From Methylomonas aurea (GTDB lineage: Bacteria > Pseudomonadota > Gammaproteobacteria > Methylococcales > Methylomonadaceae), in contig NZ_JANIBM010000021.1 of assembly GCF_024505045.1 (NCBI RefSeq), positions 1 through 64,000 of the forward strand: 64,000 nucleotides of DNA, read 5' to 3'. Positions 1 through 41,085 of this stretch are shown one piece after another (position 1 is the stretch's first letter; each line of letters opens with the position of its first letter). Under the pieces are notes generated by a model. The model was not told the origin of the DNA. It searched no databases and worked only from the letters and a program-made list of their open reading frames with translations. The position numbers and the translations under genes are program-made.

Positions 1-2127
1 CAATGCCAGTTCTTGAACCCTTTGCGGTGATTGCAATGGGGCAATCAAATCGGTGTTTTTGCCAAGCAACTCCAGCTGGCGTTGGTCGCCCGCCATTTCT
101 TCCCCTGCGCATAACGCCAATTTGGTGGCATCTGCGTAGAGTTGTTGTCTCAACGCGGCTTTAAAGGCAAATTGCAACCGATAGACGCGGACATTGCGTT
201 TATCAATCGGACTTTCGGGTAGCAATTCGTCGCTTAGTGCCAGCCGAATGAGTTCGGCATAATTTTCCGATCGTAACAATAAAATGGGCAGCACTTCGGC
301 AACATAGTTAAATTGCGTTGCCAGAGGTTTCAAGCGGTTGATGCATGAGCCAATTTGCTCTGGAGATGCGGAAAACTCTTGTCGAAACCACGTTTCTGTA
401 GGTTCATCACGGAACTGCACTGAGTTATCGGACAACCATAAAGGTCGGCCCAAATCTGCAACAAAGCTTTTGACAGCTGCGCTATCCACTTCAGCGGCAG
501 CTGCCAACACTTCAATCGGTATGAAAGGGTACAAGTTGGCTAGGCCAAGGCAAATGGCGTCGATCTGTTGCTGGAAAATGGAAGGCTGGTGTTCTTTAAG
601 CCTGGCAATTGCGTCTTTAAGTTGGGCGGCAATTTGTTCTTCAACTGTGCGGCCAAGGCCCAGACCAGTAAGAACCTTGCTAAGCGATGATGAGCTAAAA
701 TTGATAGCGTTGGCTTGGACACGCGGATTGCCGCCAGTCAAACGATGGAATTCCAAGCCATCATCTGCGCAGGCGTTTGGGAAATGCTTGCGTAAGTGAT
801 TGAGTGTTTCGGTTTGGCTAAACGGTAATAAGGGGAGCTGTTGTACATTTTGCTTGGGAGCAAGAAGATTAACGCGCTCAGTCCGGCATAAGGAGATAAT
901 GCGGCAAGCAATGGGCAATTGTTGCCGTAAAAGTTGTGGCACAAAACCCTGCTCGCCAAAATCTGCCGCCGCCATTTCTGCATTGTCGGCGGCGTCAATA
1001 AAAATGGCCAAAATACTGTTTGGATTGACTTGCCGCAATTTTTTCCCGGCAGCATCCAACCTAGACAAAAACGCCCTCAGCAAATCGTCTTCTGAGTCTT
1101 TGCTTCTTAAAATCAAGTGTTCGCATAAATCAAGCAACGCCAGTTCGTTGGCTATTTGAATTAGCGCGTCACGATAGCGATGGCGTTTTTTAATCACGTT
1201 CAGATATTCGCCGCCGCCAAAACAGTCATAAATAATGCCAACAGAACCAGTAGGTAAGTCATCAGCCAATAGGCGGCAAACCACGGATTTACCGACACCA
1301 CCACCCGCATGGATTATGACCGGCTCAGACGCATCAACAATTTGCGCCAGTAATTCGGCATGTTGTTCCCGTTGTATAGGATTGTTGAGTGGTTCAAATT
1401 TTGGCGGCGCAGGAAATAAGTGTTCTTTACTGGTCACCCCCAAACACATCAATACATTTTCTGGGGAAATTTTTCCACTAGCACCTGGCAATACCTGCTT
1501 TTGCACCAACTCAACCACGTTGTTGATTTCTTCATGCTCAACAACCCCGGCAAAAAACGACGCCATTTCAAAATGCAGCTCACTTTTTTGCTCAGCAAAA
1601 TTGCTTTCGTCGTCAGCCCATTGAAACGCCGCACAAAAGCGTTGCAAGGCTTCATCGGCCAGTTGGGTATATCTTTTAAGAGTGTTGAGGAATTTTGTCT
1701 CTGGTTTCTCGCCAGTAGCTATTGCCTGAATTCCATCCTTGAAAGTATCGCTCAGCGGACGGTTAGTAATAACAGCGAAAGTGATTGTACCTCCGCTAAC
1801 GGTTTGGCGTTTTAGATGGTCGCGGTAACGGTCAGCAAACCCTGTAATAGTATTTTTCAACTCGCTGAGCTCAAAAGGTTGGTCAACCCTTTTGCTGGAG
1901 TGTTTCAATTGGTAATAGGTGATTTCTTCGTGAAGGTCATCCGCTGCCTCGGAGTATTCCGTCACATCCATAACATATTCCCCAGCAAGGTCAGGCTCTT
2001 TCGAGCCTTCAATCACTATGCTGGTGATTTTTGAATTAGGGTTGACCATCCGTAAGCATCTTCGGGCTGCCCAACGATAATGGAACACATCGCCTGCTCT
2101 TGAATCTCTTACCGCATCGTTTCCCAT
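1..2127 (-). CDS. Avs-like STAND NTPase with N-terminal nuclease-like domain (3' end outside window)
   Basis: An open frame of 709 codons runs without a stop from an ATG at 2127 to the left edge, so the C-terminal part is missing. Residues 1-110 look like a Cap4/DUF4297-type nuclease domain: an RxGDVFHYRWA start, then D-V-T-E-Y near residue 48 and Q73-L-K75, which fit a PD-(D/E)XK core. A P-loop (GGGVGKS, K280), a Walker B segment (ILAIFIDAAD, D378) and an LTGGNPR segment typical of the winged-helix part of STAND NTPases follow. Avs proteins carry this order, nuclease then STAND ATPase then C-terminal sensor repeats, and bind phage proteins. The sensor part lies beyond the window, so the Avs assignment is inferred. 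No strong ribosome-binding site precedes the ATG. Confidence 0.7.
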   Translation of the reverse strand, partial: MGNDAVRDSRAGDVFHYRWAARRCLRMVNPNSKITSIVIEGSKEPDLAGEYVMDVTEYSEAADDLHEEITYYQLKHSSKRVDQPFELSELKNTITGFADRYRDHLKRQTVSGGTITFAVITNRPLSDTFKDGIQAIATGEKPETKFLNTLKRYTQLADEALQRFCAAFQWADDESNFAEQKSELHFEMASFFAGVVEHEEINNVVELVQKQVLPGASGKISPENVLMCLGVTSKEHLFPAPPKFEPLNNPIQREQHAELLAQIVDASEPVIIHAGGGVGKSVVCRLLADDLPTGSVGIIYDCFGGGEYLNVIKKRHRYRDALIQIANELALLDLCEHLILRSKDSEDDLLRAFLSRLDAAGKKLRQVNPNSILAIFIDAADNAEMAAADFGEQGFVPQLLRQQLPIACRIISLCRTERVNLLAPKQNVQQLPLLPFSQTETLNHLRKHFPNACADDGLEFHRLTGGNPRVQANAINFSSSSLSKVLTGLGLGRTVEEQIAAQLKDAIARLKEHQPSIFQQQIDAICLGLANLYPFIPIEVLAAAAEVDSAAVKSFVADLGRPLWLSDNSVQFRDEPTETWFRQEFSASPEQIGSCINRLKPLATQFNYVAEVLPILLLRSENYAELIRLALSDELLPESPIDKRNVRVYRLQFAFKAALRQQLYADATKLALCAGEEMAGDQRQLELLGKNTDLIAPLQSPQRVQELAL

Positions 2128-2361: not shown

Positions 2362-2632
2362 GTGACGGCTTGGGGTCAGCTGGCAACAGTCCGTTATTCA
2401 GATTCATCGCCGAAAAGCTGTCGTTGAATTCCAATGCCTGAAAGTTGCCGTTCATCACTGAGCCCAACCCTAATTTTTGCCAATCGCGCTTCTCCAAAGT
2501 CCCCAGTCGGCCAAAGCCAGATTCTGGAACTGGAGGACTACAAAGCCTTATTCCGGCAGCTTCTCGGCAAAAGCGACAGCATTGTGTCATTATCAAAATG
2601 ATTCTAATCATGTAGCAATTTGATTAGATTGT

Positions 2633-2647
2633 CTACTATACTAGTAG
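2633..2647. promoter_or_regulatory. Palindromic operator candidate for the WYL regulator
   Basis: CTACTA (2633-2638) and TAGTAG (2642-2647) form a perfect inverted repeat around a 3-bp centre, 26 bp upstream of the preferred ATG of the WYL regulator at 2674. BrxR/CapW proteins are dimers that bind inverted repeats in front of their own defence operons, so autoregulation is likely. This is inference from position and family. Confidence 0.45.
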
Positions 2648-2673
2648 CGATTGAAAATGGGATTGAAAACATA

Positions 2674-3570
2674 ATGGCAATCGGGCTACTTCAAGAACTA
2701 ACCAAACATCAGCGCGATCGCCTTGCGTTTATTGAGTTGCGTTTGCGGTTTGTCGGCGAGATTCGTCGTCAGGACCTTATTTCCAGATTTGGGCTTCAGG
2801 CCGCTGCAGCAACAAGAGATATTGGATTTTATAAGGAGCTTGCTCCTGACAATCTCGATTACAACACTAAAGGCAAGATATATACCTTCAGGGATGGTTT
2901 CAAACCGATATTCGACTTTCCGCCAGAGCGTGTGCTTACCTGGCTTTCACAAGGTTATGGGGACGGCGAACCAGCGCGATTTAGCCCATGGATTGCTTGT
3001 GAAATACCTTCACGATTAGCCCATTGTGATCTGGACACTCTTGCCAGCGTTACCAGAGCCATTCATAACGAATGCCCCCTTAAAATTGTCTACCACTCCA
3101 TCTCCAGTGGAAAAACCGAACGTGAAATCATTCCGTTTGCCTTGATCGATAATGGCCTTCGCTGGCATGTGCGAGCATTTGACCGGAATACGCAAAATTT
3201 CCGCGATTTTGTAATTACCCGAATCCGGCAGCCAATAGTGATGCAAGGTGAGAAGGTTGACCCCAATGAGCGCGAAAATCAGGATATTCAGTGGTCCAGA
3301 ATAGTTGAACTGGAACTTGTCCCCCACCCGGATCAGCCTCGTCCCGAGATTACCGAAATGGACTACGGCATGATCGATGGCAGGTTGCACTTGAAGCTGC
3401 GCGGCACCATTGCCGGATACGTACTTCGCAAGTGGTGTGTCGACTGCTCACCGAATCATAGTCTGAATGGTCCTGAGCATAGACTCTGGTTGAAAGATTA
3501 CTTGGCTCTGTATGGTGTCGAGAGTGCCACAATTGCTCCTGGATACACTTCGCCCAGGGAGAAAAGGTGA
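2674..3570 (+). CDS. CapW/BrxR-like WYL-domain transcriptional regulator
   Basis: This is a winged-helix-WYL protein of the type that represses phage-defence operons. The N-terminal part (LRFVGEIRRQDLISRFGLQ, then AATRDIGFYKEL) is a helix-turn-helix. The middle (ECPLKIVYHSISSG, REIIPFALIDNGLRWHVRAF) is the WYL fold, and the C-terminal part resembles the WCX extension. I chose the ATG at 2674 (298 residues) because the TTG at 2620 would place the palindromic operator candidate inside the coding region. It lies directly ahead of, and co-directional with, the sigma factor/GHKL/Z1 genes, which are its probable regulon. Family members are thought to sense a ligand or damaged nucleic acid through WYL and then release DNA. 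Confidence 0.8.
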   Translation: MAIGLLQELTKHQRDRLAFIELRLRFVGEIRRQDLISRFGLQAAAATRDIGFYKELAPDNLDYNTKGKIYTFRDGFKPIFDFPPERVLTWLSQGYGDGEPARFSPWIACEIPSRLAHCDLDTLASVTRAIHNECPLKIVYHSISSGKTEREIIPFALIDNGLRWHVRAFDRNTQNFRDFVITRIRQPIVMQGEKVDPNERENQDIQWSRIVELELVPHPDQPRPEITEMDYGMIDGRLHLKLRGTIAGYVLRKWCVDCSPNHSLNGPEHRLWLKDYLALYGVESATIAPGYTSPREKR

Positions 3571-3584
3571 GGCTTAAGCCTCAC
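3567..3584. promoter_or_regulatory. 18-bp perfect palindrome at the WYL stop codon
   Basis: GTGAGGCTT and AAGCCTCAC meet with no spacer and include the TGA stop of the WYL gene at 3568-3570. It lies 30 bp before the GTG start of the sigma-factor gene. It may be an operator or part of a short RNA hairpin. There is no U-tract, so a terminator is unlikely. Confidence 0.4.
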
Positions 3585-3613: not shown

Positions 3614-5743
3614 GTGAATGATTTATTTCTGAACCCGAATAAACTCTTAAATCCACTTCTCAAAATGGCAGTGCTCTCCGGGGTTCAAGCTGCTGTTCGC
3701 CTGCATATTCGTCGTGGAATCGATCTTAACGCCATTGATGAAAAGGGACGCTCACCCCTTATTCTTGCAGCATCCAAAGGACATATTGAAACCTGCAGGA
3801 TTCTTCTTGAAGCTGGCGCAGATCCTCGAATACTAGACAATGAGGGCAATGATGCGTTGTCCATAGCTTTGGACAAGAGGATGGACAACCTTGCCGAACT
3901 ATTAAAAGAAAGACTTTTGGAACTTGATCATGATTTAGCCACCGGAGCATCAGACTTGGATCCGGAGTCAAGTGAAAACGAAAGCAGTGATCCCCTGAAT
4001 GCTGCTGATGAAACATTTGATCTTTCGGGCTGGGAGTCAGAAGAAGATTCACCTGTTCCGCCTCAGGATGATGAATGCTTGGCAAGGGTTTCAGTAACTC
4101 ATCAAGCTATTTCGACACACATCCCAATCGACAATGACGAAGACTGGTCTGATGTAGACATTGACCTGCCAGACAGCAGTCGAAATAACAGGCGAATATG
4201 GAATGATGAAATTCGTAGCGAAGTACTTCGCCTGTTTGTCGTCGCTATACAAGAACGTCATGCCTCACATCGCTGGGTTGAGGATATTGCTCTGGATCAT
4301 GAAGGGGACTCCGATCCGAAATTGGAGAGCCGCCTTGTCTTTATTCTGGAAGAGATGGGGGTGATTGTAGACGATGTCGAATGGTTACAACCTGATATCT
4401 CCATTCCCCTGGACGAGGACATGGAAGACATTGCCAACGAGGCTCTGTCCTTCCTGAGCGAACTGACTTCCCAAAATATCGAACCCCAACGGCTCTACGA
4501 AAAAGATATGGCAAAGACAGTGAGCCTGCTTTCGAGAGAGGGTGAAGCTGAAATCGGCAACATTATTGAAAAAGGACTGGAGGAGGCCCTCATTGCAGTT
4601 TCGTGCTCTGTTTCAGCCATAACGGAAATTCTTTGTGTGGCTGACAAGATTCTGATGAATGAATTACCGCTGGAAACCATGGTTAACCGGGAGACCATAA
4701 TTCAGTCTGAAGATGATGACCTAGCCGATGAAAGCTACCATTTTCAGGAAGATAACGAAGATACTGATGAGAAGCCCATCTCTGACTTAACTGTTCACAT
4801 CGAAACTATTCGCGACTTACTTCCTCATTTATCAAAGGAAAACAGTCACATCATGCTCGACTCCTTGCGGGAAGTCAGATTGTCAGTGGCATTTCTGGAA
4901 GATCTTTGCAACAGACTGGGTCAATCCAAAACGGATCCAGTCGCCCATTCTGCTCTTGAATTTGCACTTGCTAAAGTGACAAGGGCGAAATCCCGCATGA
5001 TTGAGTCCAACCTCAAACTTGTTTACTCGATCGCCAGAAAATATGTCCATAGAGGATTGGCCTTCCTGGATCTGATTCAGGAAGGCAATCTTGGCCTGAT
5101 CAGGGCTGTCGAAAAGTTTGATTATCGACGTGGTTTCAAGTTTTCAACCTATGCCACTTGGTGGATACGACAGTCAATTACTCGTGCGATTGCCGATCAG
5201 GCTCGCTTGATTCGAGTTCCCGTACATATGGTCGAATCAGTCAATCAAGTCGAACGGGCCAGAGACAGAATTGAGCAGACTACGGGGCTGAATGCCGATG
5301 CAGCAAAAATTGCAAAGCAATTGTCGCTCCCGATTGAAAAGGTAACAAAAGCTTTGAGAGCAACTTCTGAAATAATCCCGATTGATTCTCTGGATATTGA
5401 AGATGTTGCGAACGCAAAGTTCTTTTTTTCAGCTGCGCCAAGTCCTGAAGAATCTGCAATGCAGATTGCACTACACGACGAATTGGATCGCATGCTGGAT
5501 ACATTGGACTCCAAAGAATCCGAGGTGCTTCGTTTACGATTCGGCCTGAACGAGAGTGACGAACAAACTCTGGAAGAAATCGGACAGGTCTTTATGGTTA
5601 CACGTGAGCGCATTCGACAGATTGAAGCCAAGGCACTACGTAAATTGAGATATCCCTCACGAGCTGAAAGTCTCAGAGACTTCATTGAAATTCCCAAACA
5701 AAAATGCCAGGAAGAGTTAAAGAAAGATGAAATATCCGAATAA
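3614..5743 (+). CDS. Ankyrin-repeat / RpoD-like sigma-70 fusion protein
   Basis: The 709-residue product starts with GTG. Residues about 15-95 are ankyrin repeats ([26 protein letters not shown], then [12 protein letters not shown]). An acidic linker follows to about 180. The rest follows the layout of a primary sigma factor: a region 1.2-like stretch near 290-330 ([19 protein letters not shown]), region 2 from about 455 ([48 protein letters not shown]), region 3, and region 4 near 660 ([17 protein letters not shown]). It should bind core RNA polymerase and recognise -10 and -35 elements; its target promoters are unknown. It overlaps the next gene by 17 bp, so it is translated with the GHKL-Z1 operon. 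The ankyrin part may sense or bind a partner. This combination is unusual. Confidence 0.85.
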
Positions 5744-7232
5744 CTCTCGAAATGCGCCTCCAAAGGCAGGAGCAATGCTTGAGGCTCTGCGGGGCCTAGG
5801 CTACTCTACGGCTACGGCTTTGGCAGACATCATTGATAACAGCATTGCCGCCAATGCACGCAAAGTGGACATTCTGTTCAAGTGGAACGGCAAGCAGTCA
5901 GTCATCTCTGTTCTCGATGATGGAAGTGGCATGGATGATTCCGAACTTGATCTTGCGATGCGTTTGGGAGAAAGAAACCCTGTTGCCGAGCGTCAATTGC
6001 ATGATTTGGGGCGATTTGGCCTGGGACTCAAAACAGCCTCTTTTTCACAATGCCGAAGGCTGACAGTCGCCAGCCGCAAGGCCGGAAATTTAAACTGCCT
6101 GAGATGGGATCTTGATGTGCTTGCCGCATGTGAGGACGATGGCTGGCATCTGCTTGAAGGGCCGGATGAAAATTCAATGGGGTTTCTTGCCCCACTATAT
6201 GCCACTCAGGATGCCGGCACTATTGTGCTGTGGGAAATACCTGACAGAATCATTACTCCAGGTTTTTGTGAGCAAGATTTCCTTGATCTCATTGACCGGG
6301 TTGAGCGTCACCTCGCTATGGTTTTTCATCGATTTATATCTGGATCCCGACTTCAAATATCCATAAACGGAAAACGTGTTGAGCCTTGGGATCCTTTTCT
6401 CACTCGACATCCGGCCACATGGTCATCGCCTACCGAGCGCATCCTCACGGAGTATGGGGCTGTAGAAGTCAGGTGTCATGTGCTCCCTCACAAAGATCGT
6501 ATGGAAACCCGTGATCACGACTCTGCTGCCGGACCAGATGGCTGGACTGCTCAGCAAGGATTTTATGTCTACAGAAACGAAAGATTGCTTGTCTCTGGTA
6601 GCTGGCTGGGCCTGGGACGTGGACGGTCCTGGACAAAGGAGGAAGCCCATCGCTTGGCTAGGATCAGGCTGGATATTCCCAACACGGCTGATGCTGAATG
6701 GAAAATCGATGTACGAAAGTCAAGTGCGCGCCCCCCTGTATCGATCCGGGAACGACTTACCAGACTTGCCGAAGATACTCGCGAGCGAGCACGACGGGTA
6801 TTCGCCCATCGAGGACAACCACTGCGAACAGGCAACAACGAACCGTTAGCTCAGGCATGGCGGACAGAACATTTCAAAGGTGGCATTCGCTATCGCATCG
6901 ACACAGAGCATCCAATCATAAAGTCGGTGCTGGAGGATGCCGGGGCCATCGAGCCACAAATTCGGGCAATGTTGCGCATCATCGAAGAAACAATCCCCGT
7001 ACAAAGAATCTGGCTGGATACAACCGAGGCTCGCGAGACTCCCCGCACCGGTTTTGCAGGCGAACCACCTGCCGTGGTTGAAGCTGTTCTAGCAGTCGTA
7101 TACAGAAATATGGTGCTTCGCAAGGGGTTATCTCCTGCTCAGGCTCGAGCACGCTTGCTATCCACCGAACCGTTCAACAATTACCCGGAATTGATTTCGA
7201 CTCTTCCGGATGAACCTAGTGTCAAGGAGTAA
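5727..7232 (+). CDS. GHKL (MORC/MutL/Hsp90-like) ATPase of the Z1 restriction system
   Basis: The 501-residue protein has the GHKL ATP-binding motifs: an N box [11 protein letters not shown] (N38), DDGSGMD at 64-70 and [11 protein letters not shown] at 95-105. A transducer-like region follows, with [19 protein letters not shown] near residue 325. Iyer, Abhiman and Aravind described MutL/MORC-type ATPases linked to Z1 helicases, Vsr-like nucleases and cytosine methylases in restriction-modification systems, which matches this neighbourhood. The ATPase probably clamps DNA on ATP-driven dimerisation. The start ATG lies inside the 3' end of the sigma-factor gene, and only 5 bp separate its stop from the Z1 gene. 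Confidence 0.85.
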
Positions 7233-7237
7233 TAAAC

Positions 7238-10153
7238 ATGTCAGCAGCAATAGAGGAAAACTGGCAAAGGGTTGTGAAATTTGTTCAGGAACTACTTCTT
7301 GACGAAGAAGACGGGACAGTTATTACCCCGGCACTGATTTCAGAAAAGATCGATATGGTTATTTCGATGAAATCAAAGTGGGGGGAAAATCTGGATCGGG
7401 AAAGCGTGATCGACGAATTGATTCGCCGAAACAGTCAATGGATCGGTCAGGATACCAGTCTTGTAAGTGATGTCGGACACGAAGACTGGTTGAATTCATC
7501 AAGAAAACAAAACTGGCGTTATTGGCAACGCTATCGGGAATGGCTTGAGAAAAAACTTTCCTGGAAGGCCATTGAAGCTCTGGATAAGTCCAGCGACTCC
7601 GTTCTAGCTTTGCTGGAAGATCCAGCTCGTGCCGGACGCTGGGATCGTCGCGGACTTGTGGTCGGACATGTTCAGTCAGGTAAAACAGGGAACTACACTG
7701 GACTCATCTGTAAAGCAGCAGATGCTGGATACAAGATAATTATTGTACTCGCTGGTCTTCATAACAATCTGCGCTCTCAAACCCAAATAAGACTGGAAGA
7801 AGGTTTTTTAGGTTATGAAACGTTGACTGATCGGGATATCAAAAGTCTGCTCGGTGTTGGCGAAATCGATAGTGACAAGGAAATCCACCCCAACTGTGCA
7901 ACCAATCGTTCTGATAAAGGTGACTTCAGTAGAAGAGTTGCCAGAAATCTGGCCGTCTCACCAGAAGAACGTCCCTGGCTTTTTGTTGTAAAAAAGAACA
8001 AGACCGTTCTTCGTGAGCTCCTGAAATGGATTCAAAACCATGCCGCCGACACCAATCTTGCGGCCAGCCATGTGCTGGCAGAGTCCCACGATGACCTTCC
8101 AAAAGTAAAGAAAATCGTAACGAAACTACCACTGTTGATAATAGATGACGAAGCTGACCATGCTTCTGTTGATACCCAGGAACAGGTATTCGACGCAGAG
8201 GGAAATCCGGATGACGAGCATTTACCAACAACCATCAACAGACTGATTCGAAGAATCCTGCATTCTTTCTCCAGGTCGGCTTACGTTGGGTACACAGCCA
8301 CCCCATTTGCCAATATTTTCATACACGAACGGGGAGAAACACGTGATGAAGGTCCTGATCTTTTCCCATCTTCCTTCATTATCAACTTGGCGGCCCCTTC
8401 GAACTATATAGGACCATCCAAAGTATTTGGATTAATGAATCAGGAAGGTCTCCGAAGTGGATTGCCTCTTGTCCGTTTGGTGGATGACTACGCTACTGAA
8501 GACGGACGAAATGGCTGGATGCCGCAACAACATAAAAACGGCCATAGACCGATCCACAACGGTACCGAGAATCTGCCTCCATCGATCATAAAAGCAATAG
8601 ACTCCTTTGTTCTTGCCTGTGCAGTTCGCCGACTTGATGGCCAGGCGAATGAACACTGTTCAATGCTTGTGCACGTCACTCGCTTCAACTCTGTACAGAA
8701 AGAAGTTTGCAGACAGGTAGAAGAACATATTCGTCACATGCGCCAGAGGCTCCACAGGAACATCGAGCACGAGATGATTCTTCAACGTCTGAAGGCCTTA
8801 TGGGAAGAAGACTTCAAGCCCACATCCCAGGCAATCCGTTCCATCCAGCCAGACCAGACATCGAAAGGAAATGTGACATGGGATGACATTCAGGCCGCAT
8901 TATTCGACACCATTTCCGATATCGAAATCCGGATGATTAATGGTACGGCGAAGGATGCACTTGACTATGACGAACATAAGGGGACAGGCCTCAAGGTGAT
9001 TGCAATTGGCGGCGATAAACTTGCTCGAGGCCTTACGCTGGAAGGGCTTTGTGTCAGCTATTTTTTGCGCGCATCCAAGATGTACGACACGCTGATGCAG
9101 ATGGGGCGCTGGTTTGGATATCGACCCGGCTACCTGGATTTATGCCGTCTATACACAACTGAGGAACTTTCAGAGTGGTTCGGACACATAGCCGACGCAG
9201 CTGAGGAGCTAAGAGAAGAGTTTGATCTGATGGTTGCCAGTGGAGCCACACCTCGCGAATATGGCCTCAAAGTGCAGTCTCATCCCGTGCTTATGGTTAC
9301 TTCCCGGCTAAAGATGCGAGCGGCAAGAGATTTGTTGCTCTCTTTCAGCGGAAAACTGCTTGAAACAGTCGTTTTTCACAAGCGCACCGGTATTCTTGAA
9401 TCAAACATTGCGGCAACATTAGGGCTGATTAACTCTCTTGGGAAACCCACTGAAGTAAACCCTGAGAGGTCGACAGCAAAAGGGAAACAGCGGTGGAATG
9501 GATTTCTCTGGCGCGATGGAGTGGCAAGCCAGGTTATTGATTTTCTGGAGGCCTATTTAACCCACCCGGAATCCTACAAAGTGAAAAGCAATCTTATCGC
9601 CGAATTCATTCGGTCAATGAATGATGCCGGTGAACTCAACAAATGGACTGTTGCATTGATTGGGGGTGGTGATGGAGGAGACTTCAGTTTAACCAAGGAC
9701 ATTGCAGTCAATATGCTGATTCGAAAAAATAACGGCCGTTTTGATGACCGCTATTCTATTGGACGACTCCTGTCTCCAAGAGACGAGTTTATTGACACCG
9801 ATGCAAAAACCTGGGAAGCCGCACTCGAAAAAACTCAAAAAGCCTGGAAACCTGATCCTGCCAGACTTCGAGAAGGCAAGTTGCAAGAGCCACCGGAAGT
9901 ACCAAATGGTCCAGCAATTCGAGAAATACGGGGATATGGTGCAAATGGCATTGAGCCATCCCGAGATAGAGGGCTGCTGCTTTTATACGTACTCGAACCC
10001 GGTCAAGAAGGAGCCAATCTGCCAGAAGGCACACCTCCAGTAGTTGCCTTTGCTGTAAGTTTCCCAGGAAGTAATGCGGGCAAACAGGTTCTTTATAAAG
10101 TCAATAGTGTTGAGTGGCATCAATGGGAGCGGGAATATGGCCCTGCAGAATAA
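7238..10153 (+). CDS. Z1-domain superfamily II helicase-like ATPase
   Basis: This 971-residue protein has a P-loop GHVQSGKT at 143-150, DDEAD at 303-307 and YVGYTATPFANIF as the motif III region. The Z1 domain then carries VIAIGGDKLARGLTLEGL and LMQMGRWFGYRPGY, the arginine-bearing motif VI. It is probably a DNA translocase that works with the GHKL ATPase and the downstream nuclease. A strong AAGGAG precedes the ATG by about 9 bp. The last 17 bp overlap the next gene. Confidence 0.9.
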   Translation: MSAAIEENWQRVVKFVQELLLDEEDGTVITPALISEKIDMVISMKSKWGENLDRESVIDELIRRNSQWIGQDTSLVSDVGHEDWLNSSRKQNWRYWQRYREWLEKKLSWKAIEALDKSSDSVLALLEDPARAGRWDRRGLVVGHVQSGKTGNYTGLICKAADAGYKIIIVLAGLHNNLRSQTQIRLEEGFLGYETLTDRDIKSLLGVGEIDSDKEIHPNCATNRSDKGDFSRRVARNLAVSPEERPWLFVVKKNKTVLRELLKWIQNHAADTNLAASHVLAESHDDLPKVKKIVTKLPLLIIDDEADHASVDTQEQVFDAEGNPDDEHLPTTINRLIRRILHSFSRSAYVGYTATPFANIFIHERGETRDEGPDLFPSSFIINLAAPSNYIGPSKVFGLMNQEGLRSGLPLVRLVDDYATEDGRNGWMPQQHKNGHRPIHNGTENLPPSIIKAIDSFVLACAVRRLDGQANEHCSMLVHVTRFNSVQKEVCRQVEEHIRHMRQRLHRNIEHEMILQRLKALWEEDFKPTSQAIRSIQPDQTSKGNVTWDDIQAALFDTISDIEIRMINGTAKDALDYDEHKGTGLKVIAIGGDKLARGLTLEGLCVSYFLRASKMYDTLMQMGRWFGYRPGYLDLCRLYTTEELSEWFGHIADAAEELREEFDLMVASGATPREYGLKVQSHPVLMVTSRLKMRAARDLLLSFSGKLLETVVFHKRTGILESNIAATLGLINSLGKPTEVNPERSTAKGKQRWNGFLWRDGVASQVIDFLEAYLTHPESYKVKSNLIAEFIRSMNDAGELNKWTVALIGGGDGGDFSLTKDIAVNMLIRKNNGRFDDRYSIGRLLSPRDEFIDTDAKTWEAALEKTQKAWKPDPARLREGKLQEPPEVPNGPAIREIRGYGANGIEPSRDRGLLLLYVLEPGQEGANLPEGTPPVVAFAVSFPGSNAGKQVLYKVNSVEWHQWEREYGPAE

Positions 10154-11159
10154 AACCGAGGAGTTGCTTGCTGCCTGGCGCGCTCTTACCGGCAATCCGG
10201 GCTCCGAAGGCTGGCTCACAATTCCTGTTACGCACGATGCCCCGTGTCAGCTGATTGCAGGCAGGCACTTTCCGGGAAATGAAGAAGCGTTGCTTGCTGG
10301 TTTTTCCACAATCAATGTTTCCCCAGCAGAAAAACTCCCACAAGGCCATGGATTCCTCGTTACGAAGACGACTTTGGGCGCTGAAGCAAGTGGTCTAATT
10401 TGGATCGCACTTTGCAGGCAAAGCACTGGCAGTCTGGATCTGTTCACCAGGATGACCAATGATGTGGTTGTGACTTTGGAGGGAATCAGAGGGGCTAGCG
10501 ATCAGAAAGCCTACCAGACATTCATAGGCAGAATCAGAGCCTGGCAAGATTTCATGTCTCGCAACGATAACGGTATTCTTGGCCGGGAAGCAGAGTTAGG
10601 ACTTTTCGGTGAGCTTGAATTACTTAAATCGCTAATCGCGACAGGAATGCCTGCCTCATTGGCAGTCGATGCATGGTGTGGTCCCATGGGCGGAGTCCAG
10701 GATTTTGCAATCGGAACTGGGGCAATCGAGGTCAAGAGTACCGTTTCTTCGAACAGTTTTCCTGCAAATATCGGCTCCCTGGATCAACTGGATGATTCTT
10801 TGATACAGCCACTATTCCTTGCCGGCTTCAGATTTGTCTTGTCACAATCGGGTATTACCTTACCTGAACAGATTGGAATTGTTCGTAACCAATTGTCCGA
10901 ATTTCCCTTTGCCAAAAACGACTTCGATAGTCGCCTCCTGCATGCAGGCTACATCGATGACCATGCTGATTACTATTCGCACCGATTTTTGCAGACAGAA
11001 AGAAAAATATTTCATATCTCGGACAGCTTCCCCCGTCTGACACGGGCGAACGTGGCCAATGAAATCAGAGGTGCGCGCTACGATCTTGATCTTGACATGA
11101 TAACAACCACAAACTCCGGGCTTGAAAACGCCTTAACTTTACTTGGGGTAATTTTGTAA
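10137..11159 (+). CDS. PD-(D/E)XK motif protein, probable nuclease of the Z1 system
   Basis: The 340-residue product matches the PD-(D/E)XK motif proteins found next to Z1 genes. Likely catalytic residues are E159 (GLFGELELL), D189 (GGVQDFAIG) and E198-V-K200, arranged as E...D...ExK. I took the ATG at 10137, which overlaps the Z1 stop and follows a GGGAG at about 10125, rather than an in-frame ATG 63 bp upstream. Its TAA shares a base with the ATG of the AIPR gene, so the two are translationally coupled. It is the likely DNA-cutting subunit. Confidence 0.8.
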   Translation: MALQNKTEELLAAWRALTGNPGSEGWLTIPVTHDAPCQLIAGRHFPGNEEALLAGFSTINVSPAEKLPQGHGFLVTKTTLGAEASGLIWIALCRQSTGSLDLFTRMTNDVVVTLEGIRGASDQKAYQTFIGRIRAWQDFMSRNDNGILGREAELGLFGELELLKSLIATGMPASLAVDAWCGPMGGVQDFAIGTGAIEVKSTVSSNSFPANIGSLDQLDDSLIQPLFLAGFRFVLSQSGITLPEQIGIVRNQLSEFPFAKNDFDSRLLHAGYIDDHADYYSHRFLQTERKIFHISDSFPRLTRANVANEIRGARYDLDLDMITTTNSGLENALTLLGVIL

Positions 11160-12946
11160 TGGAATTAGAGGATTTTTTGCGGCAGACGCAAGCAGAAGTG
11201 CAGACAGAGATCGGTGATCGCCTTGGCGCATCGGGAGAGGCCTACCCATATCCAGAGTCTGTTTTTGCCGAGGTCGTAATGCAGCATATGTCAGAAATCG
11301 GTATGACCTTTGAGCCTGAAGTTTGCCACTACTCGGCCAAAGTCGGTAATGCAAACTTGCGTCTTAGTGGTTTCGCGGTTTCGGATGAAGCCGATCAGCT
11401 CGATCTTTTTGTGAGTATTTATGATGGTGTAGACACGATCCAGTCAATTCCTGACTCGGAAACCAAAACAGCCGCAGAGCAGTGTCTTCGATTTCTTGCA
11501 AAATGTGCCGAAGGTAAACTGGCAGCAACCATGGATGAATCGAACGACGCTTATGCGCTTGCCTTGACCATACAGGAATGCTACGCCAATCTCGATCAGA
11601 TTCGGGTTTATGTGTTGACAGACAGGCAAGCCAAGGCAAAGAACTTTAAGGCTCGTGAGATAAACGGAAAAACAATAAAGCTTGAAGTCATGGACATCGA
11701 GCGTCTCCATCGTCATTGGTCAGAGGGAAAACCCAGGGACGAACTGGTTGTAAATTTCGAAGAGGTTTCTGGCGGCCCATTACCTTGCGTGTATGTTCCT
11801 GGCCAGATGACGGACTACGATTACGCCCTCACGGTTATTCCTGGGGAGGCGCTGCGCTTTGTTTACGAAAAATATGGTCCCCGGCTTCTGGAGGCAAATG
11901 TACGATCATTTCTTAGTGTAACGGGTAAGGTTAACAAAGGTATTAGAGATACCTTAAGGGATGATCCAGAGCGCTTTATGGCTTATAACAACGGAATTGT
12001 AATTGTTGCTGACGATGCCCATATTGGAAGGGCCGCTGATGGAGGGCCGGGCATTCTGTGGCTAAAAGGAATGCAGATTGTCAACGGAGGACAGACCACG
12101 GCATCAATTTACTTTACCAAGAAAAAGTCACCCGATATCGATCTGCGGCAGGTACGGGTACCTGCCAAACTGATTATTCTTAAATCAAAAGATACCATCG
12201 CTGAAGAAGCTCTCATATCCGACATCTCCAGATATGCCAATAGCCAGAATTCAGTCAAGCAATCCGATCTGTCAGCCAACAAGCCTTTCCATGTGGAGAT
12301 GGAGAAGCTTGCAATGACAACTTATTGCCCGGATGGCGTCGGTAGATGGTTTTATGAAAGGGCCGCCGGTAGTTACAATACCATGCTGTCTCGAGAAGGA
12401 ACCACACCCGCAAAACTAAAAAAACTTAAAGAATCCATCCCGCCATCCCGCAAGATTACAAAAACCGATCTGGCCAAGTTTCTTAACGCATGGAATAAAA
12501 GACCTGACTTGGTCAGCCTTGGCGCGCAGAAGAATTTCGAACGCTTTATGGATAGCCTTAGGGAAGATGATCAGTCTTCTGTCCCTTTGCCTGATGTCAT
12601 GGCATACAAGACAATGGTTGCGAAAGCCATACTTTTCAAGAAAACTCAGAGCCTTGTCCGGCCTATGTTTCCAGCTTTTCAGGGCAATGTGGCTACTTAT
12701 CTTGTTTCATTGTTGGCCGACCGTCTTGGCGAAAGAATCGACCTGGATAAAATATGGTTAAAACAGGACATTTCTATAACCTTAAGATCACAGTTGCAAA
12801 CCTGGGCTGACGAGGTCAACGAGACGTTGCACAGGACCTCGGGTGGCAAAATGATTTCCGAGTGGGCCAAAAAGCCCGAATGCTGGGATGCAGTCCGCAT
12901 GGGTTCTTATTCGCCAGTTATGGACGGTATTTTTGAATTACGATGA
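11159..12946 (+). CDS. AIPR-family (abortive infection phage resistance) protein
   Basis: The 595-residue protein carries the AIPR domain in its middle: VNKGIRDTLRDDPERFMAYNNGIVIVAD, then LKGMQIVNGGQTTASIY, ISRYANSQNSVKQSDL and KLAMTTYCPDG..RWFYERAAGSY. AIPR proteins are named after lactococcal abortive-infection genes and recur in restriction islands; their biochemical activity is not settled. It follows the nuclease gene with a one-base overlap and precedes vsr by 15 bp, so it belongs to the same operon. Confidence 0.88.
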   Translation: MELEDFLRQTQAEVQTEIGDRLGASGEAYPYPESVFAEVVMQHMSEIGMTFEPEVCHYSAKVGNANLRLSGFAVSDEADQLDLFVSIYDGVDTIQSIPDSETKTAAEQCLRFLAKCAEGKLAATMDESNDAYALALTIQECYANLDQIRVYVLTDRQAKAKNFKAREINGKTIKLEVMDIERLHRHWSEGKPRDELVVNFEEVSGGPLPCVYVPGQMTDYDYALTVIPGEALRFVYEKYGPRLLEANVRSFLSVTGKVNKGIRDTLRDDPERFMAYNNGIVIVADDAHIGRAADGGPGILWLKGMQIVNGGQTTASIYFTKKKSPDIDLRQVRVPAKLIILKSKDTIAEEALISDISRYANSQNSVKQSDLSANKPFHVEMEKLAMTTYCPDGVGRWFYERAAGSYNTMLSREGTTPAKLKKLKESIPPSRKITKTDLAKFLNAWNKRPDLVSLGAQKNFERFMDSLREDDQSSVPLPDVMAYKTMVAKAILFKKTQSLVRPMFPAFQGNVATYLVSLLADRLGERIDLDKIWLKQDISITLRSQLQTWADEVNETLHRTSGGKMISEWAKKPECWDAVRMGSYSPVMDGIFELR

Positions 12947-12961
12947 GTTTTAAATTGTGCC

Positions 12962-13417
12962 ATGGATGTTGTTGATCCTGAAAAACGTAGCAGGATGATG
13001 GCAGGCATCAAAGGGAAAAATACAAAACCTGAAATGATGGTTCGCCGCGCCCTTTTTGCTGAAGGATTTCGCTATCGATTGCATCGTAAGGATTTGCCGG
13101 GATCTCCAGATATTGTTTTAAAAAGCAAGAGAGTGGTTATTTTCGTTCACGGCTGTTTCTGGCATCGACACTCTGAGTGTCGTTATGCCAGACTGCCTGC
13201 ATCCAATGCAGATTTTTGGAGCAAAAAGCTTGAATCGAATGTTGATCGTGACCAAAAGGCAATTCATTCCCTTATTGCCTTGGGATGGCGGGTTTTGATC
13301 GTTTGGGAATGTATTACGCGTGATAAAACCATCTCGTTAGATATTGGCCGAATTATCAATAACTGGATACAGGGTGAGGATCAGACTGGAGAATTACCAG
13401 CACATATCCATCATTGA
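12962..13417 (+). CDS. vsr: Very short patch repair endonuclease (Vsr)
   Basis: The 151-residue protein has the full Vsr signature: MMAGIKGKNTKPEMMVRRAL, LPGSPDIVL with the catalytic aspartate, VVIFVHGCFWHRH, and KLESNVDRDQKA. Vsr nicks next to T:G mismatches that arise when 5-methylcytosine deaminates. The convergent cytosine methyltransferase ends 3 bp away, which is the usual partnership. In MORC/Z1 systems Vsr may also take part in restriction. Confidence 0.92.
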   Translation: MDVVDPEKRSRMMAGIKGKNTKPEMMVRRALFAEGFRYRLHRKDLPGSPDIVLKSKRVVIFVHGCFWHRHSECRYARLPASNADFWSKKLESNVDRDQKAIHSLIALGWRVLIVWECITRDKTISLDIGRIINNWIQGEDQTGELPAHIHH

Positions 13418-13419
13418 AT

Positions 13420-14970
13420 TCAATTTGAGTCATACAAAAGGTTATAAACAATCTCGGCGATTTGTTTAGCTAAATAAGGCGGAACAGCATTACCAACCTG
13501 ATGATATTGTTGGGTCCTGTTTCCCTGGAAAAAATAATTATCAGGAAATGTTTGAATTCGCGCTGCTTCGCGGACTGTAAGACTTCTACATTGTGACGGA
13601 TCGTAGTGAATGAAGTAGTGCCCATCTTTTGCCATGTGACTAGTCACTGTGTTTGATGGTTTATCATAGACTTGCACCCTGAATCGGTCAGCAAAATGTC
13701 CGGTCTCCCAATTCTTGTGCTTGGGTTCCAGACCGGGTATTTTGAAATCCTCAGCCCCTTTCGGTGAACGGTTATGAGCTTTGGCAAATGCTGCAGCGTA
13801 TAGATAGCGCCTCAGGTCGCTGGTCATATGTGCTCTTGATTCATGGTTCAGCCAAACTTGTGGACGATTCCTTGTATACCATTCCGACAGCAACTCTGAC
13901 TTCACCACTTTGGGATAATTTTCAGAGTGCATTCTTGTTCCGCCAGTAAGAATATGTTTCGAGACCCCATGCACAGCCATATGAAGTTCATATCGCAGCT
14001 TTGGATCACTGGAGTTTGAGGTCAGATAAGTTGCATGCCCGGAAACATTAGCAGCCCAGTTTTCAGGCGAATCCTTCTCACGGCTTAATATGCTCCGTAT
14101 TGGAGGGAGATCGGCTATTACATCTCCGACATTGACTTGTTTTTCAATCTTGTTTAGTAATTGTCTTCTGTTTATCGGAATATCCTCCCTGACTCCGAGC
14201 AGGATTACTCGATGTCTCGCCTGCGGCACCCCATATTCCTCAGCCTGAATGATAAAATCATGCGGATTGATCGATGTTGGGCTGTCACCCCGCTTAAATT
14301 CCACATCTTTTACTAACGATAAAATTCTGTATCTTCCGACGGAGTTTCCATCGTTGATGGCTGAATCAGGATCGGACAAGTCCTTAAGAATTGAATGAAA
14401 TATCAATTCACCATTGATTTTGGATGATAGAATTCCTTTTACATTTTCCATTACAAATATAGCAGGCCGATATTTCTGAATTATTCTTAAATATTCCTTG
14501 TATAAAAAATGCCGATCGTCTTTCTCTGGTTTGTAATCAATTTTCCCTTTGTTTCTCGATCTGCCTACCAGTGAATAAGCCTGGCATGGAGGGCCACCGA
14601 TCAAAACCCATGGAAGCTCTTGATTCAGCCTTTGCTGAATGGCCCTGTCCAGCTCGGCATTTCCGGATTCAGTCCCCAGCTCAATTAGTTTTGCCTCTTC
14701 GCTAGCCTCTAGCCACAAATCTTCCGTGGTTTCATCCGAAGGACTATCCCGATAACCATTGCAGAAATCCAGATAAAGACTCAGTTTATCCTGTGCCTTC
14801 CTCAACAGCAGTCTGTAATAAGCTCTGAGCCTTAAAGTCTGATATGCAAACTGATCTTTCTCGGCAGAAACCAGAATTTTGAATGCCTCATCGGCTGCAC
14901 TAGAAAAGCCTTCCCCCAAGCCGCCAGGGCCAGCAAATAGATCAATCACCTGGATGTCTTTTAACTTCAT
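13420..14970 (-). CDS. DNA cytosine-5 methyltransferase
   Basis: The 516 residues contain the C5 methyltransferase motifs in order: motif I VIDLFAGPGGLGEGF (9-23), motif IV GGPPCQ with the nucleophile C129, motif VI FVMENVKGI (E175), motif VIII QARHRV, a variable target-recognition stretch, and motif X GNAVPPYLAKQI near the C-terminus. About 100 residues between motifs I and IV are an insertion compared with minimal enzymes. It would protect host sites from the convergent operon's nuclease. It is transcribed behind the XRE regulator, so methylase and effectors are under separate control. The target sequence cannot be read from the protein. Confidence 0.93.
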   Translation of the reverse strand: MKLKDIQVIDLFAGPGGLGEGFSSAADEAFKILVSAEKDQFAYQTLRLRAYYRLLLRKAQDKLSLYLDFCNGYRDSPSDETTEDLWLEASEEAKLIELGTESGNAELDRAIQQRLNQELPWVLIGGPPCQAYSLVGRSRNKGKIDYKPEKDDRHFLYKEYLRIIQKYRPAIFVMENVKGILSSKINGELIFHSILKDLSDPDSAINDGNSVGRYRILSLVKDVEFKRGDSPTSINPHDFIIQAEEYGVPQARHRVILLGVREDIPINRRQLLNKIEKQVNVGDVIADLPPIRSILSREKDSPENWAANVSGHATYLTSNSSDPKLRYELHMAVHGVSKHILTGGTRMHSENYPKVVKSELLSEWYTRNRPQVWLNHESRAHMTSDLRRYLYAAAFAKAHNRSPKGAEDFKIPGLEPKHKNWETGHFADRFRVQVYDKPSNTVTSHMAKDGHYFIHYDPSQCRSLTVREAARIQTFPDNYFFQGNRTQQYHQVGNAVPPYLAKQIAEIVYNLLYDSN

Positions 14971-14973
14971 GTT

Positions 14974-15306
14974 TTACCTTTTGCCTTTCGTCGGCTTCAT
15001 GTTCGATTGATTGGCAATGAGTGTGTCAATAACCTTATCCAGGACCAATCGCGCATCTGCAGCCTCTAAATCCATTAGATGATTCAAGATTTTTGTTGCC
15101 AATTGCTCCGCAGAAGGGACTGCCTGAATTCCTCTTAGATTGACGAGATGCATGCAGTGATCAATCACTCTAGCAGGAGGATTGACACTGCCGCGTTCAT
15201 ATCGACTAATTGAAGATTGCATGACTCCTAATTCCTTGGCGAACTGCTCCTGACTTTGTCCATTTCGTGCCAAACGGACCAACTCGGATACTGATGAGAT
15301 CATCAT
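14974..15306 (-). CDS. XRE-family regulator of the methyltransferase gene
   Basis: The 110-residue protein has an N-terminal helix-turn-helix: LVRLARNGQSQEQFAKELG, then MQSSISRYERGSVNPP. Its gene precedes the methyltransferase by 3 bp and is preceded by a 27-bp palindrome. It resembles the controller proteins that time methylase expression in restriction-modification systems. The residues after about 75 (LMDLEAADARLVLDKVID) probably form a dimerisation helix. Confidence 0.8.
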   Translation of the reverse strand: MMISSVSELVRLARNGQSQEQFAKELGVMQSSISRYERGSVNPPARVIDHCMHLVNLRGIQAVPSAEQLATKILNHLMDLEAADARLVLDKVIDTLIANQSNMKPTKGKR

Positions 15307-15313
15307 GCTACTG

Positions 15314-15340
15314 TAAATTATGCATATAATGCATAATTTA
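15314..15340. promoter_or_regulatory. 27-bp palindromic operator in front of the XRE/methyltransferase genes
   Basis: TAAATTATGCAT (15314-15325) and ATGCATAATTTA (15329-15340) are perfect 12-bp arms around ATA. The palindrome ends 7 bp before the XRE start codon, and a further ATGCAT lies at 15350-15355. Position and symmetry point to autoregulation by the XRE protein. Confidence 0.7.
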
Positions 15341-15377
15341 CTATAAAAAATGCATCATTATCATCTTTTGTTGGTTA

Positions 15378-16487
15378 TTAACCCGGCCCTTAAATACCCC
15401 GGGCAGCGTATGCTGCGGAAGGGTGTTTGAAGTAAGCCGCGACATGGTTAGGCAATGCCGCGATGCGATTCATGAAGGCATGAGCTTTTTCCAGTAGTTC
15501 GTCGGTGCTTTTGCTAACGGGACCGCTTCGCAACGCTGTCTTGAAATCTCGGTTGAGGTATTCGTCAGGATTGGATTCTGGAGCATACGGCGGTAGAAAT
15601 ACCAGCTCAATCCGATCCCGTTTGTCGCTTAGCCAGTCGCTGACTTGTCTGGCATGATGGACGCGCAGATTGTCGACCACCAGAAAAATTTTCCGCGTCG
15701 CACCTTCGATCAAACGCGCGAGAAATTCTAAAAAACGCGCGGTGTTGATCGATCCTTCAACGATTTGAAAGGCCACCTCGCCTCGCGCCGAAATAGCGGA
15801 AATCATCGAGAGTTTGTGCCAGCGGGTGGGTGTCTTCAGCACTGGGGTCTGGCCTTTGGGCGCATAGCCCCGAATCCAATGGGTATCTTCTTTCACGGCC
15901 GTTTCATCACCCCATAAAATCGTGGCACCTTCCGCTTTGGCCCGGGTGACGATCTGTGGGTAGGTTTTTTCCAACCATTCGGCGACTTTGACCGGGTCTT
16001 GCTCCAAGGCGCGCTTGATCGGGCGTTGCGGGGTAAAGCCCCAGCGCTTGAGATACTTGCCGACCAGACGATCTTGCATGTCCACGCCAAAGCGCTCCCG
16101 AATCAAGGCCTTGATCGCCGGACGCGTCCACAACGCAAAAGGTAATTTCAATTGTTGCGGACAGTCGCCGACAATTTGATCGCGCAACCAACATTCATCT
16201 GCCATCGTCAGCTTGCGTCCAACGCCAATCCGACGACCGCGCGTTTTTTCCTGCAACGCGCCTTCGCCTTCCTTGCGTGCCCGCGCCAACCATTCTTCCA
16301 CCGTACGCTGGTGAACCCCGGCAACGCGGGCTAATTCTTGGTGGCTCAGCCCTGACTGTTTTCGCAATCGAACGACCATTTGACGCAACAGCGCCCGCCC
16401 TTCAACCGTTAATTTTCGCGCATCAATCTTCTGCTTTTCCATACGCGTATTTTATCACAATTACAGGGTATTTAAGGGCCGGGTTAA
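15378..16487. mobile_element. IS630-family insertion sequence with TA target duplication
   Basis: The element is 1110 bp. Its ends, 15378-15399 (TTAACCCGGCCCTTAAATAC...) and 16466-16487, are perfect inverted repeats of at least 22 bp. A TA dinucleotide flanks each end (15376-15377 and 16488-16489), the target duplication expected for IS630/Tc1 elements. It holds one intact transposase gene. Perfect ends and an intact gene suggest a recent insertion, 35 bp outside the XRE operator. Confidence 0.9.
15390..16442 (-). CDS. IS630-family transposase
   Basis: The 350-residue transposase has an N-terminal helix-turn-helix (LSHQELARVAGVHQRTVEEWL), a second winged helix (RPAIKALIRERFGVDMQDRLV) and the DDE catalytic core: ILWGDETAV, IFLVVDNLRVHHA and LPPYAPESNPDEYLN. 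The TAA stop falls inside the left inverted repeat. The frame is complete. Confidence 0.93.
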   Translation of the reverse strand: MEKQKIDARKLTVEGRALLRQMVVRLRKQSGLSHQELARVAGVHQRTVEEWLARARKEGEGALQEKTRGRRIGVGRKLTMADECWLRDQIVGDCPQQLKLPFALWTRPAIKALIRERFGVDMQDRLVGKYLKRWGFTPQRPIKRALEQDPVKVAEWLEKTYPQIVTRAKAEGATILWGDETAVKEDTHWIRGYAPKGQTPVLKTPTRWHKLSMISAISARGEVAFQIVEGSINTARFLEFLARLIEGATRKIFLVVDNLRVHHARQVSDWLSDKRDRIELVFLPPYAPESNPDEYLNRDFKTALRSGPVSKSTDELLEKAHAFMNRIAALPNHVAAYFKHPSAAYAARGI

Positions 16488-21843: not shown

Positions 21844-22395
21844 ATGACTAGCAAACAGAAAAAAACCAAAGCAACCTGGAGCGACGTTAAATCCAAATTG
21901 GCTGACGTCGATCGTGTTGGCCTGATCGGCCTGATACAAGATCTATACGCAGCCAATAAAGATAATCAAACGTTTCTGCATGCACGATTCGGGTTGGGCG
22001 AGGATATTCTTAAACCCTATAAGACCACCATTTCCCGTTGGATTTGTCCTGATGTAATGCGCAATCAGCCTATTTCAGTGGCCAAAGCGAAGAAAGCGAT
22101 TACCGATTACAAAAAGGCGGTCGGTCAACCTGAAGGACTGGCTGAACTGTCAATTTTCTATTGCGAAGAAGTATTTGTTTTCCTGGGTTACTGCGGCATG
22201 GACGATGAAGGGTATTTCGATGCCTTAGTGCGAATGTTCGAACAAGCGTTGAAATATGTCATGGCATTGCCGGAAGCCAAACGCCCACCGTTTATAGACA
22301 GACTCGAGCAAGTTGCACTGCAAGGCCCGAACGTCGGCTGGGGTGTTGGCGACGACATGGAAATATTGTTAGCCGAATATGGCATCGATGACTAG
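21844..22395 (+). CDS. Hypothetical protein preceding the TOTE primase-helicase
   Basis: The 183-residue protein may belong to the DUF6155-like group (KLADVDRVGLIGLIQDLYAANKDNQTFLHARF), but I am unsure. The mid part is basic (RWICPDVMRNQPISVAKAKKAITDYKKAVG) and the C-terminus is acidic. Its last 17 bp overlap the next gene, so the two are a unit. It is divergent from hipBA and shares the intergenic region that holds the HipB operators. Confidence 0.6.
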   Translation: MTSKQKKTKATWSDVKSKLADVDRVGLIGLIQDLYAANKDNQTFLHARFGLGEDILKPYKTTISRWICPDVMRNQPISVAKAKKAITDYKKAVGQPEGLAELSIFYCEEVFVFLGYCGMDDEGYFDALVRMFEQALKYVMALPEAKRPPFIDRLEQVALQGPNVGWGVGDDMEILLAEYGIDD

Positions 22396-31300: not shown

Positions 31301-32001
31301 TAATTAACAACAATGACATCAATGACTCTGATTATTGTAAGCTGATAACTTGCATTCCATGGGTTTACTCAAACTTTCCTGACAGCATTTCAGAAACCAA
31401 ATACAAGCACTTAGTCAATGCCAAAAGAGTGAAACTTACTGATAAGTCATTTGGTTCCATCGGTGATAATATTCAGATTTTAGCTCTATTGATTAGTAGA
31501 AACATTGATATTTATCTGAAAGAAAAGGGAAAATATCCATTAAATGATGAGACTCGGCAGTTACTGCTATTAAGTGAAATCAGCGAAGAAAGTAAGCTTA
31601 ATATTTCTTACGACATTGCACCAAAAAGCGTGGAGAATAATCGAGCTTTGTCACAATTAATATCCAATGTGCTTGTATCAAATGAAGTGGATTATTCAAG
31701 ATTTGATGATGCCGTTCTATCTTCAGCCATCATTAATTCTCAATCAACTTCAGATGCAATTAAAATTCTTGTCAAATGTATAACTAATTGGAATGAAGAA
31801 CAAGCTTTCAAAGTTATTCAATATCTTCCAGAGCCGTTTTGTGAAATACCTGCATATGGAAAGCGGCCTAAGCTTGAGCTAAATACTGAAAATTTGGATT
31901 TTGCTAATATTTTAGATAGAAAAGGGTTTATTTCTTCATTTAAAGAGAAATCTGACCATATAGCTATAAATACTTTTAAGTCAAGTGATCATTCTGAATA
32001 A
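28387..32001 (+). CDS. YobI-type membrane-associated P-loop NTPase
   Basis: The 1204-residue protein resembles the YobI family, related to KAP NTPases: Walker A GPYGSGKS at 65-72, ISLIERSILQQMLYG, two membrane segments at about 138-157 (IIKSLAFVFWIIVILYFYL) and 174-192, then Walker B VVVIEDLDRFG near 241-251 and FLYALKDDMF. The long C-terminal half (about 400-1204) is helical with no domain I can name and may sense or bind a target. The gene is visibly more AT-rich than its neighbours, with many AAA, ATT and AAT codons, a sign of transfer. Large NTPases of this kind sit in defence islands. It appears monocistronic. Confidence 0.75.
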   Translation: MDKKMDLKAFGYKLINAFKGGVDDSERSSFTDLAPSDKADKDGTYSKAITFALENSRVKNIALTGPYGSGKSSIIRTYEKNNKKYRFMNVSLASFKEDDNGNVDISLIERSILQQMLYGADANKLPYSRFKRITTPRHPIIKSLAFVFWIIVILYFYLHRNQLHEFEYNTLSWYVWCFAFAYTLSIPALIISDIYKATFGISIKKVSLKNAEFETAESSDNSILNRHVDEIIYFFEQTKYDVVVIEDLDRFGNPDIFVKLREINKLINDNQNAREIKFLYALKDDMFAHKNRAKFFDFIIPVVPIINSSNSLDKMQERLKKHDFAKNIDTQFLREVSLYVDDLRLIHNIFNEFEIYYELLKSVNLDVKKLLAMMIYKNVYPNDFESLHHGKGVLFDVCNKRDEYLTNIEDKLKDKIANLESGLDKLNSEKLRSIRDLIASYVGYIVVHANQSVMGIVVNNQNIQFSQLTTFEQFKPLITEQNIQLWGQNNHIYNQGRFPTNKSFEQFEAAINPGEKFLSRKENIENNLELKKIQIEQEIRSLEKEISDLSLKQLSQLLQSGNIEINESNLEYGVTGGRLLTYLVKNGYIDENYYLYISNFHEGRLSKNDRDYLLTIRNFNYPAPDQKIDTPKEVCANMREEDFSRGYVLNIDLIDYFIEFHDLCSKYLDSALDYMSMNFELCEEFFIAYFNKGRYVDDLIRHLSKKWPDLASAAISSKHSAEIISYIIRFVDSKYISNNMNSDNILGDYLSEHGYLVLASDLQLPDKYDVLKKLSVRFHNLSSLVNNSSVIEFCHNESLYEITIDNVNFVLKKFADPSIKSTINPETENYTSIKKAGSDRLKEYIEKNILTYINNIFLTLPSNCDESEASIKTLINNNSIYDELKKSIISKQKLVFDTFDGLPESIWSHAFLEEKVTISWNNISTYLKCDGCDINVLNELLGRERIVKNLSSIDISKEVLSEEDSKLLSRFLINNNDINDSDYCKLITCIPWVYSNFPDSISETKYKHLVNAKRVKLTDKSFGSIGDNIQILALLISRNIDIYLKEKGKYPLNDETRQLLLLSEISEESKLNISYDIAPKSVENNRALSQLISNVLVSNEVDYSRFDDAVLSSAIINSQSTSDAIKILVKCITNWNEEQAFKVIQYLPEPFCEIPAYGKRPKLELNTENLDFANILDRKGFISSFKEKSDHIAINTFKSSDHSE

Positions 32002-37856: not shown

Positions 37857-41042
<3,186 letters not shown>

Positions 41043-41085
41043 GGCCTGTCTCCGCTAGGCTAGTGGTGTTTGGTGCCCGGTTGCA

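Follow-up and report, generated by a model that had tools for sequence, protein, structure and literature searches.

The 64,000-nucleotide stretch of Methylomonas aurea DNA analysed here, referred to throughout as the window (NCBI RefSeq contig NZ_JANIBM010000021.1, positions 1 to 64,000), carries an operon at 3614-12946 that PADLOC and NCBIfam profiles identify as MzaA-E of the MZA anti-phage system. All five PADLOC Mza models are matched – by adjacent genes, in order and on one strand – with scores of 280 (MzaA), 682 (MzaB), 1252 (MzaC), 205 (MzaD) and 832 (MzaE) bits. MzaE is the sole window Mza protein above its NCBIfam cut-off (1071 bits against 1050), with MzaA (548 against 800), MzaB (834.5 against 850), MzaC (1373 against 1500) and MzaD (384.5 against 420) below theirs, and for this reason the operon is a homologous but divergent member of MZA, four of its five proteins not being equivalogs by the NCBI rule. 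The profile identifications also led to the rejection of an unnamed new system as a candidate. From homology to the named system the operon is predicted to protect against phage; the primary MZA paper is reportedly that of Gao et al. 2020. The operon and the parts of its first gene are as follows.

3614..5743, + strand: mzaA, ankyrin repeats, acidic 56-residue module and RpoD-type sigma factor (PADLOC, NCBIfam NF041931)
3650..3949, + strand: mzaA ankyrin part, residues 13-112 (Pfam Ank_2 at residues 17-99; AlphaFold model mostly confident)
4004..4171, + strand: mzaA acidic 56-residue module, residues 131-186 (alignment, profile model)
4202..4378, + strand: mzaA region 1.1-like segment, residues 197-255 (hhalign to RpoD region 1.1)
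4481..4585, + strand: mzaA sigma region 1.2, residues 290-324 (alignment to RpoD 96-127; Pfam sub-threshold)
4997..5206, + strand: mzaA sigma region 2, residues 462-531 (Pfam Sigma70_r2, 83.6 bits)
5234..5377, + strand: mzaA sigma region 3, residues 541-588 (Pfam Sigma70_r3, 30.4 bits)
5495..5650, + strand: mzaA sigma region 4, residues 628-679 (Pfam Sigma70_r4, 59.8 bits; RERIRQ identical to RpoD)
5727..7232, + strand: mzaB, GHKL (MutL/Hsp90/gyrase-type) ATPase (PADLOC, NCBIfam)
7238..10153, + strand: mzaC (PADLOC, NCBIfam)
10137..11159, + strand: mzaD, DUF4420, PD-(D/E)XK nuclease family (PADLOC, NCBIfam)
11159..12946, + strand: mzaE, AIPR protein (PADLOC, NCBIfam)

The mzaD start at 10137 is preferred over that in the open reading frame (ORF) list, 10074, and makes the gene overlap mzaC by 17 nt, matching the E. 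coli annotation. An earlier, sequence-only reading had described ankyrin repeats and sigma regions 1.2 to 4 in one frame, within a run of GHKL ATPase, PD-(D/E)XK, AIPR and Vsr genes. Both observations are confirmed, the first by Pfam and, for region 1.2, by alignment to RpoD, and the second by PADLOC, NCBIfam and TIGR00632, and the interpretation placed on them is partly supported. It had also presented a sigma factor in a GHKL-Z1 system as lacking any known account; the sigma factor is real, but it is already catalogued, NF041931 being titled 'MZA anti-phage system associated sigma-70 family RNA polymerase sigma factor MzaA', and PMC9523054, where it treats mzaABCDE, calls it a validated system and describes mzaA as 'a sigma factor'.

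The ankyrin-sigma gene among MZA loci

The window and the E. coli loci L102 and L103 fall in one clade of 21 rows (100/100). Tabulation of neighbours, as proposed in the sequence-only reading, places the ankyrin-sigma gene in line upstream of mzaB in 19 of the 19 scorable clade loci, across different hosts and in agreement with the E. coli counts; a sigma gene is present in none of the 27 scored loci with homologous B-E genes outside the clade. Those outside loci manage without a sigma gene, as would suit an unrelated neighbour, but its constancy within the clade makes such a bystander scarcely credible, and we strongly disfavour it. Among the Type II systems that PMC9523054 describes, with about 20% identity to mzaBCDE, mzaA is reported there in only a few. 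The ankyrin-sigma gene looks like a fixed part of MZA, and its sigma half appears to have been replaced at least twice by a copy of a main sigma factor.

Whole-protein MzaA scans of genome and viral contigs returned mostly RpoD, as judged by match ranges, and one full MZA locus, L200, which is the same contig as L169; a search across the class with the MzaA model was likewise swamped by RpoD-like matches. At an E-value of 1e-60 NF041931 matches 362 of 369 genomes, none over the cut-off and presumably mostly through RpoD, and the model is a trap for surveys using loose thresholds. A defensome survey (PMC10924106) places mzaA among frequently mutated genes and reports a Sigma70 non-essential domain within it; our guess is that part of this signal could come from RpoD, because the MzaA model seems to pick up RpoD as well.

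The ankyrin part and the acidic module

Ankyrin models match all nine MzaA scanned, that of E. coli AH21 included, and the ankyrin part is alignable in 18 MzaA (in L169 without its first part); it is not peculiar to the window MzaA. No gap interrupts the acidic module in the 14 of 19 MzaA that were aligned, and two tryptophans and one leucine are invariant. A hidden Markov model (HMM) of the module built without L114 and L169 recovers both (3e-16 and 2e-16); with L147 and L148 omitted from the model instead, those two are recovered only weakly (4e-4 and 1e-4). Only MzaA frames are matched in the two locus frame sets searched. Across 398 genomes of the phylum the module is strong in four, all four of them MZA loci, and the HMM misses three further genomes with MzaA (G833, G934 and G789, corresponding to loci L132, L134 and L135); four weak matches remain, the best of which (G741) was examined and attributed to chance.

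The AlphaFold model of window MzaA (mean predicted local distance difference test score, pLDDT, 76; predicted template-modelling score, pTM, 0.47) is confident over most of the ankyrin and sigma parts, with the 56-residue module as a low-confidence stretch. Its linker is uninformative because the input alignment held just two MzaA among 32 rows, the other 30 being RpoD-like. Structure searches with the model return sigma70 chains, mostly from E. coli, with low overall template-modelling (TM) scores, as expected for a many-domain model; PDB 5yix (compare GcrA) is among the matches. GcrA is a partner of sigma70 region 2 in Caulobacter, and the divergent MzaA of L132 (4825-7257) matches GcrA in an additional C-terminal stretch (64.6 bits, profile positions 2-49 of 155). 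The MzaA of L109 and L136 also carry extra C-terminal stretches, alike by eye. A further sigma fusion considered at L137 was rejected, its ORF matching the alpha-subunit C-terminal domain (alpha-CTD) and region 4 only.

The sigma half and its possible role

Relative to RpoD, window MzaA adds the N-terminal ankyrin part and acidic module and has a short, diverged non-conserved region; the cell's own RpoD is a separate gene on contig C41. The sigma half is of RpoD type in having a region 1.1-like segment together with regions 1.2, 2, 3 and 4 and their contacts, some of which vary. By hhalign, the region 1.1-like segment aligns to RpoD region 1.1 with probability 83.5 and score 35.6 (exchanging query and template gives 47.5 and 28.5), at a low identity of 16%; 20 column shuffles in the first direction peak at 15.3.

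Roles have been assigned to individual RpoD contact residues, and we scored these in 18 MzaA, using E. coli RpoD numbering. The comparison of regions 2.4 and 4.2 that the sequence-only reading had suggested finds the -35-reading residues of region 4.2 (R584, E585, R586, R588, Q589 and K593) identical to RpoD in 18/18, as are the -10 contacts Q437 and R441. W434 is likewise kept in all 18, Y430 in 17 and W433 in 15; Q406 is kept in 18 and the full D403-Q406-E/D407-N409 set of region 2.2 in 15, with R448 (12/18) and E458 (13/18) less well kept. Region 4 identity to RpoD is 38-64% in MzaA versus 28-42% in 12 other sigma factors from the same genomes, with L136 overlapping, and region 3 is as loose in MzaA as in those 12. 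Because the -35-reading residues equal those of RpoD and the core-contact and -10 residues are largely kept, redirection of polymerase to private defence promoters, which the sequence-only reading had entertained, is unlikely, and a private promoter set was rejected.

Compared with L107, L108 and L110, the window has ratios of nonsynonymous to synonymous substitution (dN/dS) of 0.01-0.08 for region 1.2, 0.08-0.13 for region 2 and 0.08-0.16 for region 4, and of 0.14-0.20 for the ankyrin part, 0.20-0.40 for region 3, 0.32-0.46 for the linker and 0.32-0.96 for the non-conserved region. Whole MzaA (0.22-0.35) exceeds MzaB-E (0.07-0.18), and Vsr (0.20-0.49) is equally fast. Purifying selection acts strongly on regions 1.2 and 2 within the window's clade.

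This selection bears on a reading in which the sigma half has lost its function with polymerase and only the region 4 helix-turn-helix is used, bringing the complex to DNA. The invariant region 4.2 contacts would fit such a leftover, as would the poorly kept region 3, the missing core motif and W433 in L132, L134 and L135, and the GcrA-type stretch of L132, but the region 2.2 motif stands in 15 of 18 MzaA, the constraint on regions 1.2 and 2 argues against it, and low region 3 identity is equally present in the 12 other sigma factors – the ground on which a broken sigma factor was itself rejected. We consider it quite improbable. The largely intact contact residues of regions 2 and 4, with their low dN/dS, would also suit a working sigma factor that maintains expression of the operon or of other defence genes, for instance once a phage has disabled RpoD, with the ankyrin part as an on/off switch; mzaA is the first of five genes, fitting a regulator, and a host RpoD swapped in would yield a sigma factor functional in that host. 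This we think rather unlikely; among the alternatives to the docking role that we favour, a plain regulator of transcription ranks first.

Under that docking role, to which we give an even chance from the sequence comparisons, MzaA would stand in for RpoD and dock the defence complex on RNA polymerase, serving either as a targeting arm or as bait. Contact with RNA polymerase and ordinary promoters would fall to the sigma half, and contact with MzaB-E to the N-terminal half with its ankyrin part and acidic module. MzaA might then aim the machinery at the promoters of incoming DNA, or it might be a bait for phage factors that attack sigma70, T4 AsiA being the obvious candidate for such a factor. 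By analogy, the bait version may work like an integrated-decoy sensor. Two sigma halves (L114 and L169) appear to derive from different RpoD, one of them from the genome carrying it, and RpoD as the attacked protein is an assumption of this comparison. A chromosomal-type RpoD can provide what is required of the sigma half, while the operon keeps its own ankyrin and acidic part.

Several observations weigh against docking. Some promoter contacts vary, including T440 (12/18, with serine in two and another residue in four), N383 (13/18), R423 (11/18) and E420 (aspartate in 16/18), and R99 of region 1.2 is kept in 7/18. The core-binding residues, whose absence the sequence-only reading had taken as an argument against a role in the system, are retained in 15 MzaA but fail in the single clade of L132, L134 and L135, where the usual region 2.2 core motif, W433 and a clear form of the 56-residue module are all lost, so that core binding may not be needed in every MZA lineage. 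The AlphaFold model gives no information on contacts of MzaA with MzaB-E. Replacement is seen in 2 of 19 MzaA, and the pair L114/L169 was picked after seeing a tree; the L114 branch is long. The other sigma halves do not track host RpoD: own-host ranks for 13 MzaA, of 26 compared, are 5, 11, 5, 14, 3, 1, 1, 3, 1, 23, 24, 17 and 15, and general tracking was rejected with the own host first in 3/13. When only regions 2-4 are used, the test does not reject one clade for the 17 MzaA included (p 0.10) and leaves the placement of L114 unsettled; the two-origin case therefore also rests on region 1.2 and the non-conserved region.

Accessory genes and related loci

The operon is flanked by the following features.

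2620..3570, + strand: WYL-domain regulator, an optional part, 43 bases upstream of mzaA (Pfam WYL, 46 bits)
3567..3584, no strand: perfect 9+9 bp palindrome overlapping the end of the WYL gene
12962..13417, + strand: vsr-type endonuclease (TIGR00632, 158.5 bits, over cut-off)
13420..14970, - strand: C5-cytosine methyltransferase, convergent with vsr (Pfam DNA_methylase, 170.6 bits; TIGR00675, 148 bits)
14974..15306, - strand: small helix-turn-helix (HTH) protein, controller-like, on the upstream side of the methyltransferase and collinear with it (Pfam HTH_31 and HTH_3, both above cut-off)
15313..15341, no strand: 13-bp perfect inverted repeat, spacer 3 bp, immediately upstream of the HTH and methyltransferase genes

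A WYL homologue lies upstream of mzaA in L110, L109 and L132, and none was found upstream of mzaA in L107 and L108. Repeat and promoter scans upstream of mzaA gave no firm result. The repeat at 15313..15341 looks like a controller operator. At the right edge of the MZA module lies a DDE_3/HTH_33 transposase (15390-16442, - strand), which we label IS630-type.

Other defence genes occupy both sides. Positions 1-2127 (- strand), running off the window, encode the N-terminal 709 residues of an Avs3a-type protein (PADLOC Avs3a, 707 bits, profile positions 5-722 of 2090), another defence system near the WYL gene. An island of further defence-like genes at 17528-43601 includes a DUF927 protein, HipA, a TOTE-type primase-helicase (22379-24745), a UvrD helicase with topoisomerase zinc ribbons, a Tmn/YobI-type ATPase (28387-32001) and a type I restriction system (37857-43601) with a SoFic-like Fic protein between its R and S subunits.

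Within the window's family, L107 and L108 have the operon as in the window, with vsr, the convergent methyltransferase and the HTH gene. L110 has full-length mzaA and mzaB frames, broken mzaC and methyltransferase frames and no match to mzaD or mzaE, and L111 shows matches to pieces of mzaC, mzaD and mzaA only; both are decaying MZA loci. On the Thalassospira marina plasmid pCSC3H3 (L104), genes for a restriction endonuclease and a cytosine methyltransferase come after mzaA-E. E. coli ES5 (L102) has two tandem MZA copies beside yecA/tyrP, with a frameshifted integrase between them. The vsr and C5-methyltransferase genes attached in the window were not found in the ES5 and AH21 loci, but both share its five genes, their order and the 17-nt mzaC/mzaD overlap, and AH21 MzaA, like that of the window, combines ankyrin repeats with sigma-70 regions 2 and 4.
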